Source of the DNA: Pseudomonas taeanensis MS-3 | GTDB taxonomy: Bacteria > Pseudomonadota > Gammaproteobacteria > Pseudomonadales > Pseudomonadaceae | Assembly: GCF_000498575.2 (NCBI RefSeq) | Contig: NZ_AWSQ01000002.1 | Coordinates: 775,600 to 839,599 of the forward strand | Direction: 5' to 3' | DNA: 64,000 nt | Shown: positions 38,078 through 53,337 of the stretch, piece by piece | Numbering within the stretch: position 1 is the stretch's first letter | How the letters are laid out: each line of letters starts with the position of its first letter | Made by a program: the position numbers and the translations under genes | The notes under the pieces: model-generated | The model's input: the letters and a program-made list of their open reading frames with translations, nothing else | What the model was told of the DNA's origin: nothing | Database searches by the model: none

Positions 38078-38401
38078 ATGCGTAAAAGTTATATCTCTTC
38101 TGTGCTTTTTGGCGTTCTGGCGGCTGCATCCTTGACGGTATCTGCCGCCGAAACTGCAAAGATGACGCCGGATAAACCTGCAGTTGTACAGGTCGCTGAG
38201 GCCGCCAAGGTCAATCTCAACAATGCCGATGCGCCGACCCTGCAGCGCGAGTTGAGTGGTATTGGCGAGGCAAAGGCCAAGGCGATCGTGGCTTATCGCG
38301 ATGCCAATGGTGCCTTTGCCTCGGTCGATGAGTTGCTGGAAGTCAAGGGCATTGGTGTAGCTATTCTGGAGAAGAATCGCGATAAGTTAAGTGTCAATTA
38401 A
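38078..38401 (+). CDS. ComEA-like helix-hairpin-helix protein
   Basis: The 107-residue protein has a signal peptide (SVLFGVLAAASLTVSAAE), a short linker, and a ComEA-type helix-hairpin-helix domain (KVNLNNADAPTLQRELSGIGEAKAKAIVAYR..., SVDELLEVKGIGVAILEKNRDKL). Such proteins bind double-stranded DNA in the periplasm and may act in DNA uptake. ATG 38078 lies 8 bases after TGGAG. It is followed directly by a strong terminator. Confidence 0.9.
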   Translation: MRKSYISSVLFGVLAAASLTVSAAETAKMTPDKPAVVQVAEAAKVNLNNADAPTLQRELSGIGEAKAKAIVAYRDANGAFASVDELLEVKGIGVAILEKNRDKLSVN

Positions 38402-38409
38402 CCTGCACT

Positions 38410-38452
38410 GAGCATGAAAAAGGCCGGTCACTGACCGGCCTTTTTCATGCTC
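38410..38452 (+). terminator. Strong hairpin terminator after the ComEA-like gene
   Basis: A 21-bp perfect inverted repeat (38410-38430 with 38432-38452) has a GC core GGCCGGTCA/TGACCGGCC and T5/A5 arms. It can act in both directions. It marks the left edge of the tRNA-Asn repeat array. Confidence 0.9.
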
Positions 38453-38455
38453 AGA

Positions 38456-39011
38456 AGTGGCGAGTAACCTGGTACGCAGTCGCAGGTGAGAGTCCGGCGG
38501 AAACAAAAAAGCCCCGGGATTAACCGAGGCTTTCGAATTTGGCTCCGCGACCAGGACTCGACAGCGCAGCTGAACGCGCTTTAGCGCGGCCCCGAAGGGG
38601 TGAGCCTTGGCGAATAACCTGGGAGGCAGTCGCAGGTGAGAGTCCGGCGGAAACAAAAAAGCCCCGGGATTAACCGAGGCTTTTGAATTTGGCTCCGCGA
38701 CCAGGACTCGACAGCGCAGCTGAACGCGCTTCAGCGCGGCCCCGAAGGGGTGAGCCTTGGCGAATAACCTGGGAGGCAGTCGCAGGTGAGAGTCCGGCGG
38801 AAACAAAAAAGCCCCGGGATTCACCGAGGCTTTTAAATTTGGCTCCGCGACCAGGACTCGACAGCGCAGCTGAACGCGCTTCAGCGCGGCCCCGAAGGGG
38901 TGAGCCTTGGCGAATAACCTGGGACGCAGTCGCAGGTGAGAGTCCGGCAGAAACAAAAAAGCCCCGGGATTAACCGAGGCTTTCGAATTTGGCTCCGCGA
39001 CCAGGACTCGA
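38456..39011. repeat. Tandem 150-bp repeats carrying the tRNA-Asn 3' end (rtT-like array)
   Basis: Units recur at an exact 150-bp period (the AAACAAAAAAGCCCCGGGAT block starts at 38501, 38651, 38801 and 38951). Each contains the last 22 bp of the tRNA-Asn gene (38540-38561, 38690-38711, 38840-38861, and 38990-39011 inside the gene itself). Read in the tRNA direction, the tRNA tail is followed by an 8-bp-stem terminator with six T, then about 90 bp of spacer that folds into further hairpins. Copies differ at only a few bases, suggesting recent or maintained duplication. The layout resembles the E. coli tyrT operon, where tandem repeats carry 19 bp of tRNA-Tyr and yield rtT RNA. No integrase or CRISPR gene is near. 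Confidence 0.9.
38954..38982 (-). terminator. Terminator of tRNA-Asn
   Basis: On the reverse strand AGCCTCGG, six loop bases and CCGGGGCT form an 8-bp stem (38981-38974 with 38967-38960) followed by a T6 run. It is the first of four copies, one in each repeat unit (others near 38504-38532, 38654-38682 and 38804-38832). Confidence 0.85.
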
Positions 39012-39065
39012 ACCTGGGACCCAATGATTAACAGTCATTTGCTCTACCGACTGAGCTATCGCGGA
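38990..39065 (-). tRNA. tRNA-Asn (GTT)
   Basis: The 76-base reverse-strand gene starts TCCGCGATAGCTCAG and ends with an encoded CCA. The anticodon loop is CTGTTAA (anticodon GTT), with the T-arm GGTTCGAGTCC. All four stems pair. Its 3' 22 bases are repeated three more times downstream in the 150-bp array. Confidence 0.97.
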
Positions 39066-39077
39066 ACAACGACGCGT

Positions 39078-39105
39078 ATCCTACTGATTAAAAAGGGGAA
39101 GTCAA
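39078..39105 (-). promoter_or_regulatory. Sigma-70 promoter of tRNA-Asn
   Basis: On the reverse strand TTGACT (39105-39100), a 16-base spacer and TAGGAT (39083-39078) lie about 12 bases before the tRNA 5' end, with a GC-rich discriminator (ACGCGTCG). The -35 region lies within the loop and stem of the tyrB terminator. Confidence 0.6.
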
Positions 39106-39124
39106 GTGTCTGCAGGCTTCCCCT
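39091..39124 (-). terminator. Terminator of tyrB
   Basis: On the reverse strand AGGGGAAG (39124-39117) pairs with CTTCCCCT (39101-39094), followed by a run of T. It sits 8 bases after the tyrB stop and overlaps the tRNA-Asn promoter. Confidence 0.7.
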
Positions 39125-39131
39125 GAATACC

Positions 39132-40328
39132 TTAGAGGACCTGGGCGATGGCCTGGGTCACGGCCGGTAGGTTGCGCTGGTTGAGCGCCGCGACGCAGAT
39201 GCGTCCGGTGCCGACGGCGTAGATACCGAACTCGCTCTTCAGGCGCTCGACCTGCTCGGTGGTCAGCCCCGAGTAGGAGAACATGCCGCGTTGCTGGGCG
39301 ACGAAGGCGAAGTCGCGCTTGGCGTCCAGGGCAGCCAGTTGCTCGACCATGGCCAGGCGCATACCGCGAATGCGCCCGCGCATTTCACCCAGTTCGGCTT
39401 CCCACATGGCGCGCAGCTCCGGGCTGTTGAGCACTGCGGCGACGACGCTGGCGCCGTGGGTCGGCGGGTTGGAGTAGTTGGTGCGGATGACGCGCTTGAG
39501 CTGCGACAGCACGCGGGAGGTTTCGTCTTGCGAACCGGTGACGATGGACAGTGCACCGACGCGTTCGCCATACAGCGAGAACGACTTGGAGAAGGAGCTG
39601 GAAACGAAGAAGGTCAGGTCGGACTGGGCGAACAGGCGCACGGCGGCTGCGTCTTCTTCGATACCGTCGCCGAAACCCTGGTAGGCGATGTCGAGGAACG
39701 GCACATGCTCACGCTCGCGGAGGATCTCGAGGATGGCTTGCCAGTCGTCCATGTTCAGGTCGACGCCGGTCGGGTTGTGGCAGCAGGCGTGCAGTACTAC
39801 GATCGAACGGGCTGGGAGGTTCTTCAGGTCTTCCAGCAGGCCGCCCCGGTTCACGCCGTTGCTGAAGGCATCGTAGTAGCGGTAGTTGCGCACCGGAAAG
39901 CCGGCGGACTCGAACAGGGCTCGGTGGTTTTCCCAGCTGGGGTCGCTGATGGCGACCGTAGCGTCCGGCAGCAGGCGCTTGAGGAAGTCCGCACCGACCT
40001 TCAGGGCGCCTGTGCCGCCCAATGCCTGAGCGGTGATCACGCGGCCTTCGCGGATCAGGGCCGAGTCGGCGCCGAACAGCAGGGTTTGCACGGCCTGGTC
40101 ATAGGCGGCGATGCCCTCGATCGGCAGGTAGCCGCGCGGCGCGTGTTTTGCTGTGAGCGCATTTTCTGCTTCAGCCACCGCACGCAACAGCGGAATTCGG
40201 CCCTCTTCGTTGGTGTACACGCCAACACCGAGGTTGACCTTGGAGGGGCGGGTATCAGCGTTGAATGCTTCGTTGAGGCCCAGGATGGGGTCACGCGGAG
40301 CCATTTCGACGGCAGAGAACAGACTCAT
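39132..40328 (-). CDS. tyrB: Aromatic/aspartate aminotransferase
   Basis: This PLP enzyme of the aspartate/tyrosine aminotransferase class transfers amino groups between Asp, Tyr, Phe and 2-oxoglutarate. The 398-residue protein opens MSLFSAVEMAPRDPILGLNEAF. It has the substrate segment NLGVGVYTNEEGRIPLL, the PLP region HACCHNPTGVDL, and the Schiff-base Lys in SSSFSKSFSLYGERVGAL, with conserved Arg near the C-terminus. I chose ATG 40328 as the family start. Neighbours (divergent uvrB) match the Pseudomonas tyrB locus. aspC is an alternative name. Confidence 0.93.
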   Translation of the reverse strand: MSLFSAVEMAPRDPILGLNEAFNADTRPSKVNLGVGVYTNEEGRIPLLRAVAEAENALTAKHAPRGYLPIEGIAAYDQAVQTLLFGADSALIREGRVITAQALGGTGALKVGADFLKRLLPDATVAISDPSWENHRALFESAGFPVRNYRYYDAFSNGVNRGGLLEDLKNLPARSIVVLHACCHNPTGVDLNMDDWQAILEILREREHVPFLDIAYQGFGDGIEEDAAAVRLFAQSDLTFFVSSSFSKSFSLYGERVGALSIVTGSQDETSRVLSQLKRVIRTNYSNPPTHGASVVAAVLNSPELRAMWEAELGEMRGRIRGMRLAMVEQLAALDAKRDFAFVAQQRGMFSYSGLTTEQVERLKSEFGIYAVGTGRICVAALNQRNLPAVTQAIAQVL

Positions 40329-40518
40329 GGTTGCGGCAGTCTCGAAGGAAGAGCGGTGGATGAGCACGCAACACCTTGCTACGACAGGGGCTAGGGGTTG
40401 CATAAAAGGGTCGTTAGTATAACCAGCCGGGTCGCGTGTCGCGACAACGTAGGCTCGCTTTTCACCGGGTTTGACGTAGGCTGTCAGGTTGCGTCACAAC
40501 CGCTTGTCGAGGTTAGTC

Positions 40519-47822: not shown

Positions 47823-47898
<76 letters not shown>

Positions 47899-47962
47899 TC
47901 TTCAAAGCCGAAAGGCTTGCCACAATCAGCTCTCGAAGCTGGTTGAGTTGTAGAAGGGTTAC

Positions 47963-48038
47963 GTCCCCTTCGTCTAGTGGCCTAGGACACCGCCCTTTCA
48001 CGGCGGTAACAGGGGTTCGAGTCCCCTAGGGGACGCCA
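47963..48038 (+). tRNA. tRNA-Glu (TTC), copy 1
   Basis: A 76-base gene beginning GTCCCCTTCGTCTAGTGG, with anticodon loop CTTTCAC (TTC), T-arm GGTTCGAGTCC and encoded CCA. It lies 64 bases after the first tRNA-Ala. Confidence 0.97.
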
Positions 48039-48089
48039 GTTTCAAAAAGCGGTGCTGGTATGGGCTGTGAGCCGAGAGGCGATAAATCC

Positions 48090-48165
<76 letters not shown>

Positions 48166-48242
48166 ATTTAGCGGTTCACAATCTGATGATTTGCTAACTG
48201 CCACGGGCCAGCGTAAAGCTGGCCTTGTTTTTCGAAGGTTTC

Positions 48243-48318
48243 GTCCCCTTCGTCTAGTGGCCTAGGACACCGCCCTTTCACGGCGGTAACAGGGGTTCGA
48301 GTCCCCTAGGGGACGCCA
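48243..48318 (+). tRNA. tRNA-Glu (TTC), copy 2
   Basis: A 76-base gene identical to tRNA-Glu copy 1, last of the Ala-Glu-Ala-Glu array, with encoded CCA. Confidence 0.97.
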
Positions 48319-52829: not shown

Positions 52830-52893
52830 ATGCGGGACGCCGAAGTCGGGTCTCGCGATGAACCACTCGCTGCAATTCAGGAGACTACCCATG
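52830..52893 (+). promoter_or_regulatory. ROSE-like RNA thermometer in the ibpA leader
   Basis: The leader folds into two hairpins. An upstream stem pairs GCGGGAC (52832-52838) with GTCTCGC (52850-52856). The 3' hairpin pairs CTCGCT (52866-52871) with the ribosome site AGGAG (52879-52883), leaving G52869 unpaired. This UYGCU opposite AGGA with an odd G is the hallmark of ROSE elements controlling small heat-shock genes. Confidence 0.65.
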
Positions 52894-53337
52894 AGCACTG
52901 CATTTTCCATGACCCCGCTGTTCCGCCAGTCGGTTGGCTTCGATCGCTTCAATGACCTGTTTGAGTCGGCGATGCGCAACGAGTCCGGCAGCAGCTACCC
53001 GCCGTATAACGTCGAGAAGCACGCCGATGACCAGTACCGTATTGTCATCGCTGCTGCCGGCTTCCAGGAGGACGACCTGGAGCTTCATGTGGAGCGCGGC
53101 GTATTGACCATCAGCGGAGGCAAGCACGATAACGGCGCAGAAAACGTGACCTACCTATATCAGGGCATTGCCCGGCGAGCATTCAAACTGTCATTCCGCT
53201 TGGCCGACCATATTGAAGTCAAGGCTGCCAGTCTGGTCAATGGCCTGCTTAATATCGATCTGCTACGCATCGTTCCAGAAGAGGCCAAGGCCAAGCGCAT
53301 CCCGATCACGGGGCTGCGGCCGGCGCCGGTGAGCTAA
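52891..53337 (+). CDS. ibpA: IbpA small heat-shock protein
   Basis: IbpA binds unfolded proteins and aggregates. The 148-residue protein has an N-terminal region (MSTAFSMTPLFRQSVGFDRFNDLF) and an alpha-crystallin domain (YPPYNVEKHADDQYRIVIAAAGFQEDDLELHVERGVLTISGG..., YLYQGIARRAFKLSFRLADHI) with the hydrophobic LLNIDLLRIVPEEAKAKRI tail. ATG 52891 follows a GGAGA site by 7 bases. A sigma-32 promoter and a thermometer-like leader precede it. Confidence 0.95.
   Translation: MSTAFSMTPLFRQSVGFDRFNDLFESAMRNESGSSYPPYNVEKHADDQYRIVIAAAGFQEDDLELHVERGVLTISGGKHDNGAENVTYLYQGIARRAFKLSFRLADHIEVKAASLVNGLLNIDLLRIVPEEAKAKRIPITGLRPAPVS

Follow-up and report, generated by a model that had tools for sequence, protein, structure and literature searches.

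The RNA rtT of Escherichia coli has so far been described, in the accessible portions of the literature, as a by-product of the tyrT operon or as a family of small RNAs encoded near tRNA genes. One study (PMC4986893) cites an effect of rtT on the stringent response in E. coli and reports Northern signals for RtT RNAs in A. pleuropneumoniae, where they are encoded upstream of Asn and Lys tRNA genes; another notes that rtT is similar to BIMEs (PMC2965389). In the E. coli sequence itself (L186), we counted six exact 19-nt tRNA tails in tyrT, two of which belong to the tRNAs, and three steps of 178 bp past tyrV. A unit here consists of a tail, GGGGAAGGAT, which is the antisense of the tail, a sense half of the T-arm, a block of hairpins and again a tail, and in the E. 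coli record the annotated rttR terminates at the CCA of a tail copy.

Other RNAs are likewise derived from the surroundings of tRNAs. The 3' external transcribed spacer (3'ETS) of E. coli leuZ is a sponge of other small RNAs. With such spacers of tRNA operons, the locus described in the following would share the production of RNA from tRNA-adjacent sequence during maturation, but it is a tandem array of tRNA tails, and a sponge role is without support here. In titles and abstracts, which cover the subscription literature thinly, we found no report of a Pseudomonas tRNA-Asn tail array or of tails matched to many tRNAs.

The locus lies in a 64,000-nt stretch of the Pseudomonas taeanensis MS-3 genome, which we refer to as the window. 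On its minus strand, at 38990-39065, ARAGORN and Rfam RF00005 predict tRNA-Asn(gtt), and Tandem Repeats Finder reports an array at 38458-39011 with a period of 150, 3.7 copies and 97% matches. The features of the locus are as follows:

39132-40403, minus strand: class I/II aminotransferase, conserved right neighbour (Pfam Aminotran_1_2, 4.6e-78; synteny)
39078-39105, minus strand: sigma-70-like promoter of the tRNA gene, TTGACT - 16 - TAGGAT (9/12, consensus scan only)
38990-39065, minus strand: tRNA-Asn, anticodon GTT, the parent gene, with its last 22 nt at 38990-39011 (ARAGORN, Rfam RF00005)
38840-38989, minus strand: unit 1, comprising terminator, antisense T-arm, sense T-arm half, hairpin block and tail (period 150; alignment of relatives)
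38957-38984, minus strand: terminator behind the tRNA, with further copies at 38807-38834, 38657-38684 and 38507-38534
38929-38945, minus strand: antisense T-arm segment of unit 1, with further copies at +150, +300 and +450 bp
38916-38925, minus strand: sense T-arm 5' half of unit 1, GTCCCAGGTT, which forms hairpin H1 with the antisense segment
38862-38915, minus strand: hairpin block H2-H5 of unit 1, of which 43 nt are similar to dispersed repeats of the genome
38840-38861, minus strand: tail copy 1, 22 nt, identical to the tRNA 3' end including CCA
38690-38839, minus strand: unit 2, with the anatomy of unit 1 (period 150; alignment of relatives)
38690-38711, minus strand: tail copy 2
38540-38689, minus strand: unit 3, with the anatomy of unit 1 (period 150; alignment of relatives)
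38540-38561, minus strand: tail copy 3
38456-38539, minus strand: distal degenerate unit with terminator, antisense and sense T-arm, lacking hairpin block and tail
38408-38454, no strand assigned: perfect 23-bp inverted repeat, terminator-like, between the ComEA-like gene and the array
38078-38401, plus strand: ComEA-like helix-hairpin-helix protein, left neighbour (Pfam HHH_3, 1.2e-21)

A sequence-only reading of this DNA had described three copies of the tRNA-Asn tail at an exact 150-bp period, each with its own terminator, and this description holds. The 22-nt tail at 38990-39011 recurs without a mismatch at 38840-38861, 38690-38711 and 38540-38561, and the region 38300-39200 contains four terminator-like sites against 1.3 expected from shuffles, every one of them starting 5 bases past the CCA of the tRNA or of a tail copy. 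Among the 41 distinct tRNA predictions listed for the genome, this tRNA-Asn alone has extra tail copies in its surroundings (up to 4 mismatches of 22, usually 1.5 kb per side, with the final stretches left out). A chance origin of the array is excluded.

The sequence-only reading had missed the antisense and sense copies of the T-arm as well as the degenerate fourth unit (~38456-38539) in which the array ends. In the direction of the tRNA, a unit is composed of the terminator, a 17-nt antisense T-arm segment, three variable bases, the sense T-arm half, the hairpins and the 22-nt tail. The antisense segment, GGACUC-UC-ACC(x)GGGAC, is the reverse complement of the variable loop and T-arm of the tRNA except for its two middle bases; in the window, one more base does not match, which leaves 14 of 17 matching positions versus 15 of 17 in most relatives. 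The sense segment, GUCCC(x)GGUU, copies 10 nt from the 5' half of the T-arm. A search of the genome of the window that allowed one mismatch located the antisense segment at its four places in the array only.

Two simpler descriptions of these repeats were rejected. A 189-aa open frame with a TTG start crosses the array on the minus strand (38387-38956), because 150 is divisible by 3; complete units in relatives measure 134 to 179 nt, so the frame is not conserved and the array is not a coding one. Likewise, although the sense T-arm and the tail are kept, the other T-arm piece is inverted, and therefore a simple decay of whole tRNAs does not explain the units. Elsewhere in the window we observed a run of tRNA-Ala, -Glu, -Ala and -Glu at 47823-48318, 9 kb off the array, apparently a tandem duplication of an Ala-Glu pair; a ROSE_3 RNA thermometer at 52831-52896 (58.2 bits), which overlaps the start of an open frame (52858-53337) that is presumably a small heat-shock gene; and, near the window start, a short tandem repeat of a G-rich 13-mer (181-210).

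In its design, the array closely follows E. coli tyrT. Both have tandem units behind a tRNA, an exact tail with CCA, an antisense T-arm, a sense half and GC-rich hairpins immediately before the tail, in the same order, so the likeness that the sequence-only reading had drawn is better supported than it could have known. Unlike tyrT, the Pseudomonas array is attached to tRNA-Asn, is built of 150-bp units and has an intrinsic terminator in each of them; its antisense segment corresponds to the T-arm and variable loop, whereas that of E. coli corresponds to the acceptor and T-arm. Its hairpin block resembles RtT weakly and on the opposite strand, with no match over the Rfam cut-off.

A covariance search with the RtT family model, which the sequence-only reading had put forward as a check, came out negative at this cut-off: with RF00391 (gathering score 45 bits) there is no match in the window, and none of eight array genomes contains a match over the cut-off. 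The best score over the eight array loci is 25.8 bits, on the units and on the opposite strand. At E <=1, the eight genomes yield seven RtT matches, of which four are array units and three lie elsewhere; these four comprise all three matches of the genome of L044 and the single one of that of L094. In the reverse direction, our model R1 of the Pseudomonas units finds the RtT arrays weakly, with two matches at E <0.02 and mostly on the opposite strand. We rejected an assignment of the array to any known Rfam family: RtT stays below its cut-off, and the sub-threshold matches to Phe_leader and SpF41 lie on the tRNA end and the terminator. Since the RtT model is blind to the Pseudomonas array, we file the array as an RtT-like variant and not as a member of RtT; it may be a variant that works like RtT.

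The hairpin block may, judged by its sequence, be similar to that of RtT in inverted form, or it may have been recruited independently from palindromic repeats. It resembles dispersed palindromic repeats, of the REP, BIME or MITE type, in the same genome. Unlike these, the array unit adds a tRNA tail, an antisense and a sense T-arm and a terminator, and it occupies one orthologous locus. Two such palindromic, MITE-like repeats lie in opposite orientation ~24 kb apart at C1:303394 (L006) and C1:327827 (L005) of the genome G000; they have 43 nt in common with the hairpin block, and one has the ends GGCCGTTGAAAAA, which, by eye, were not seen in the array units.

The architecture is found behind further tRNAs. 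In 229 genomes of the class, the RtT model gave matches at E <=0.01 in 52 and matches over the cut-off in 15. Among the 20 loci with the best matches, 18 contain a tRNA and 14 a copy of that tRNA's own tail (up to 2 mismatches of 19), and an own-tail copy was also present in 14 of 20 further stretches, which were picked as tandem-looking or strong and of which three overlap the first set. The tRNAs at these loci are Tyr, Gln, Ser and Arg. Many of the loci (L187-L226) share with the Pseudomonas array tails and antisense segments of their own tRNA, a hairpin block and a tandem arrangement of up to four copies, and sometimes also a terminator after each tail; unlike the Pseudomonas array, they sit behind other tRNAs (Gln, Ser, Arg, Tyr) and are found by the RtT model. 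Tandem arrays of own-tRNA tails with RtT-type blocks can be seen behind tRNA-Ser, -Gln and -Arg of gammaproteobacteria in this set, for instance in L210, L211, L212 and L213. At one locus (L207, tRNA-Gln at 1880-1954), three RtT-like units in 213-bp steps lie upstream of the tRNA, with weak R1 matches at 1281-1829; no tail copy was recognised there.

At these loci, the antisense segment is typically that of the adjoining tRNA. In a set of 30 units, made up of 25 units from RtT loci, the E. coli unit and four Pseudomonas units hand-picked from the 69 loci described below, the antisense segment fits its own tRNA best, among the tRNA types represented, in 24, compared to ~1.3 expected; the set excludes duplicates, units containing N (L194) and loci in which no tail copy could be recognised. 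The misses are L197, L200, L201, L214, L216 and the unit of the window, whose antisense segment ranks its own tRNA 4th of 27 because of its one extra base change. Across the first units of the Pseudomonas arrays, tRNA-Asn takes rank 1 in 55 of 68 when compared with 26 other tRNA ends, and the remaining 13 are mostly ties or near-ties, with L048 ranking it last. A narrower test of the acceptor-side antisense places the own tRNA first in 17 of the 30 units and failed for Pseudomonas and several Ser units, which indicates two registers: an acceptor-side one, found mostly in Gln and Tyr units, and one on the side of the T-arm and variable loop, found in most Ser units, the Arg unit and the Pseudomonas Asn units. 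Units that belong to one tRNA type are related to each other, so the independent cases number closer to five than to thirty.

The tRNA-Asn array was located in 69 distinct loci, the named ones nearly all from Pseudomonas or Stutzerimonas. Duplicates of one genome and loci that have no tRNA-Asn in the stretch or fail the match were removed from this set (left out are, e.g., L019, L023, L030, L052, L070-L072, L096 and L099). We thereby also carried out the comparison of unit numbers suggested by the sequence-only reading: there are 100 complete units in 68 of the 69 loci, with three units in 5 loci, two in 22, one in 41 and none in 1. A scan of named genomes returned 61 stretches, including ones from P. 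oleovorans, P. alcaligenes, P. anguilliseptica, P. straminea, P. nitroreducens and Stutzerimonas species; 55 of them contain tRNA-Asn, in 54 cases together with the same aminotransferase, and in the 55th (L053) the ComEA-like gene is present. On the far side of the array, this gene was found in 32 of the 69 loci only, partly because flanks are short, and lies within 500 bp of the last tail in 30 of the 32; the remaining loci have short flanks or other genes there. Two pairs of contigs deserve mention as assembly cases: in P. nitroreducens 381H, two contigs (L040 and L071) seem broken inside the array, so draft genomes may under-count units, and two array contigs filed under P. synxantha and Bacteroidota metagenome-assembled genomes (L068 and L072) are probably misbinned.

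Used as a query, the unit gave some match in 83 of 398 genomes of the genus, many of which consist of a tRNA end with terminator or of a dispersed repeat only. Exact tails that are not preceded by T, and hence lie outside tRNAs, occur at 48 places in 34 of the 398 genomes, and all 48 fall inside unit matches (compared by eye). The array is absent from the one P. aeruginosa record examined, pHOU1-1, an apparently chromosomal stretch with the same neighbours and one terminator. Given that exact tails are found in just 34 of 398 genomes and that this record has none, the array is dispensable. A P. aeruginosa sequence filed as a plasmid (L037, NZ_CP042268.1) carries polysaccharide genes, the ComEA-like gene, the aminotransferase and uvrB, and therefore looks chromosomal. 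Beyond the genus, R1 matched 10 of 293 genomes of the order, with full units adjoining tRNA-Asn in two further genera of the family (R1 matches, the lesser ones partly read). A mobile core elsewhere in the order was rejected, as the R1 matches that were read beside tRNA-Asn are all in the family of the window; those in another family (L183-L185) are dispersed repeats with no tRNA-Asn nearby.

To gauge constraint, we used the four-fold sites of the neighbouring aminotransferase in 61 genomes as a clock. In 31 pairs whose four-fold identity averages 0.48, close to saturation at 0.43, identity amounts to 0.93 for the antisense segment, 0.98 for the sense T-arm and 0.97 for the tail, and to 0.78 for the hairpin block (gaps counted) and 0.58 for the terminator region; in 348 pairs at a four-fold identity of 0.56, the corresponding values are 0.92, 0.95, 0.98, 0.81 and 0.63. 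The two middle bases of the antisense segment that mismatch the tRNA are conserved in 65 and 64 of 66 rows, and copying from or exchange with the tRNA thus does not explain them. By contrast, the tails, 87 of 100 of which are identical to that of their own tRNA (31 of 32 internal versus 56 of 68 distal ones), could be maintained by exchange with the tRNA gene. Units are also more alike within one locus than between loci, and terminator types have been swapped inside arrays. The earlier suggestion that selection or recombination keeps the copies alike seems to hold in both its parts, judged by the conservation across species and by the tails that equal their own tRNA.

The tRNA T-stem reads CCUGG/CCAGG in most species, and the flipped form CCAGG/CCUGG arose twice on the aminotransferase tree (10 of 62 rows); the tails followed both times, while the sense T-arm half did not in the 10 flipped rows. 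The antisense base facing the flip is A in every unflipped row counted; in the 10 flipped rows, the matching change is present in 4, from both lineages, the base is missing in 5 and unchanged in 1 (L011). Because there are two events and half of the flipped rows lack the base, this tracking is suggestive only.

In an alignment of 66 units (A1), a specified structure of the closing helix plus H1-H5 has 93.2% of its cells paired and 37 cells with double changes, compared to 10.9 in shuffles and at most 12 in slid controls. Repeated paired changes are found in two hairpins, H5 and H2. The H5 pair 88-97 is A-U in 47 rows, G-C in 19 and broken in 0, and an H5 pair occurs as U-A in the second unit of L085 and in L179; the H2 pair 42-52 is C-G in 44 rows, G-C in 14 and broken in 2. 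On the aminotransferase tree, each side of the H5 pair changes 7 times, and the two sides agree in all 5 of the independent pairs with good support; for H2 the figure is ~3.8 of 4, yet with so few events a sign test does not reach 0.05 for either. Template switching within the hairpins could be an alternative source of such paired changes. The closing helix between antisense segment and tail is paired in 96.7% of its cells, with no pair changed on both sides, the tail side hardly varying. Unaided, RNAalifold prefers another fold, in which CCGCG of the hairpin block pairs with CGCGG of the tail in an acceptor-like helix. A wobble-strand test shows no excess of G-U over A-C on the tRNA strand (7 vs 23; 7 vs 12 without the closing helix, inside which 11 of the A-C fall), and RNA-level pairing on this strand is therefore not a proven case. 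By duplex energy, the own tail ranks first in 10 of 30 units, and the four Pseudomonas units rank it 3, 3, 7 and 2 of 27. Among six units that we folded, L205, L212, E. coli and Pseudomonas L010 close the tail on the antisense segment, with five inner hairpins in the closed domain of L205 and L212, and L189 and L210 do not.

We give a probability of about one half to the reading that tRNA-Asn carries a long-standing array of RtT-like RNA units, with a released structured RNA, or its antisense, as product. The anatomy, the orthology, the constraint and the matching to the own tRNA are established observations, from which we infer read-through, release by tRNA-processing enzymes and an action of the product along the following lines. 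A unit would begin just past one CCA and end with that of the following tail copy. Transcription through the terminator that follows the tRNA would yield a precursor, in which folding predicts that the antisense T-arm of a unit pairs with the unit's own tail copy (GGACUC with GAGUCC, with a predicted extension by UCCGC with GCGGA in units 2 and 3 of the window). The predicted helix closes a hairpin domain that ends in a tRNA-like GCCA-3', and enzymes that process tRNA ends may free the unit, by analogy with what is reported for E. coli rtT. With a tail closed by the antisense strand and released in this manner, the tail copy would direct maturation of the 3' end, with the antisense strand as its pairing partner. 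The functional product may then be the released structured RNA, or its antisense may act on precursors or fragments of tRNA-Asn. As the tail counts suggest, recombination with the tRNA gene would keep the tails identical and renew the tRNA-proximal part of the array, while the far end decays. Several observations count against an RtT-like RNA: there is no G-U excess and no compensation in the closing helix, RNAalifold prefers its other fold, the duplex ranks are poor, the antisense follows the flip in 4 of 10 rows, the window ranks its own tRNA 4th of 27, and the distribution is patchy. Furthermore, with a terminator following the tRNA, little expression of the units is to be expected, which also speaks against this explanation.

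The serious rival is a neutral or selfish tandem repeat without an RNA function, in which the 3' end of the tRNA and its terminator were duplicated by chance and took up a piece of a dispersed palindromic repeat. Tails and hairpins would then be homogenised by unequal crossing-over and by conversion with the tRNA gene and the dispersed repeats, and the paired changes would come from template switching inside hairpins. We consider it rather unlikely on balance, although much fits it, namely the likeness of the hairpin block to dispersed repeats, a greater similarity of units within than between loci, the exchange of terminator types within arrays, the lack of a G-U excess, the restriction of exact tails to 34 of 398 genomes of the genus and the drop in tRNA-identical tails from internal to distal copies, a decay gradient typical of tandem arrays. 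What it does not explain are antisense and sense T-arm segments whose identity is still 93-98% when four-fold sites are almost saturated, with the two bases unlike the tRNA among those kept. Divergence between species is not slowed by concerted evolution, and the kept segments therefore speak against a neutral repeat. Nor does the antisense segment have another copy in the genome at up to one mismatch, and units with their parts in this order are also found behind tRNAs for Tyr, Gln, Ser and Arg. Neutral upkeep thus accounts for the tails and their decay, but not for the kept antisense segment or the recurrence behind other tRNAs.

The conserved parts might instead serve the tRNA-Asn transcript in cis, as a buffer for processing, termination or insulation toward the next gene, with the antisense T-arm capturing read-through transcripts and so preventing misfolding of the tRNA. 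A terminator behind the tRNA and each of the three tail copies, the complementarity of the antisense segment to the T-arm and the position of the array directly behind the tRNA in the loci read would agree with this. We nevertheless hold such a module to be improbable: one terminator suffices at the corresponding place in P. aeruginosa, the ComEA-like gene already has its perfect 23-bp terminator-like repeat, and the gene beyond the array varies between species. Less plausible still is a stack of scars left by integrases at the tRNA-Asn 3' end, which the sequence-only reading had named as its alternative. Transfer RNA tails are classic attachment sites, and in a plasmid region of P. veronii, a match to the tRNA-Asn end has a tyrosine recombinase and a MobH relaxase next to it; yet all 48 exact non-tRNA tails of the 398 genomes lie within unit matches, and the units are orthologous and conserved, unlike independent scars. 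Among the matches listed, 15 of 16 array genomes have recombinases on the array contig, the nearest 62 kb off, and the remaining one has none there. On the far side of the array, 15 proteins were compared with protein families: the insert genes of L049 and L059 plus, from each of 13 loci with no ComEA-like gene, the largest open frame on that side. None of them matches a recombinase family, and 3 match no family at all. We thus rejected the stack on the distance of recombinases, the flanking genes and the absence of exact tails outside units, and regard attachment-site scars as very unlikely.

The sequence-only reading had also raised the possibility of a family of small RNAs with tRNA tails; this stands as an architecture behind five tRNA identities, and not as a family of RNAs. 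Tentatively, and with more doubt than we attach to the reading for this locus, we propose a class-wide, tRNA-tethered type of RNA gene, in which a hairpin block, often derived from dispersed palindromic repeats, gains a tRNA-like 3' end from the tail of the own tRNA, along with a matched antisense segment. Genes of this type would have been assembled after tRNAs of no fewer than five identities (Asn, Tyr, Gln, Ser, Arg). Each would tie a small RNA to how its own tRNA matures, and perhaps to how much of that tRNA is present, and the tRNA-Asn array of the Pseudomonadaceae would be a branch missed by Rfam. Given the similar layout behind other tRNAs in E. coli and its relatives, this may be a widespread, poorly known kind of tRNA-attached small RNA. 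A tail and an antisense T-arm that match the upstream tRNA, in five identities and with long-term conservation in the Pseudomonadaceae, turn the arrangement into a testable general design, that of an RNA made with its tRNA and matured like a tRNA. The species and loci compiled here are a ready set for seeking the RNA product, and the arrays themselves would be a natural, repeated experiment on how cells reuse tRNA processing.
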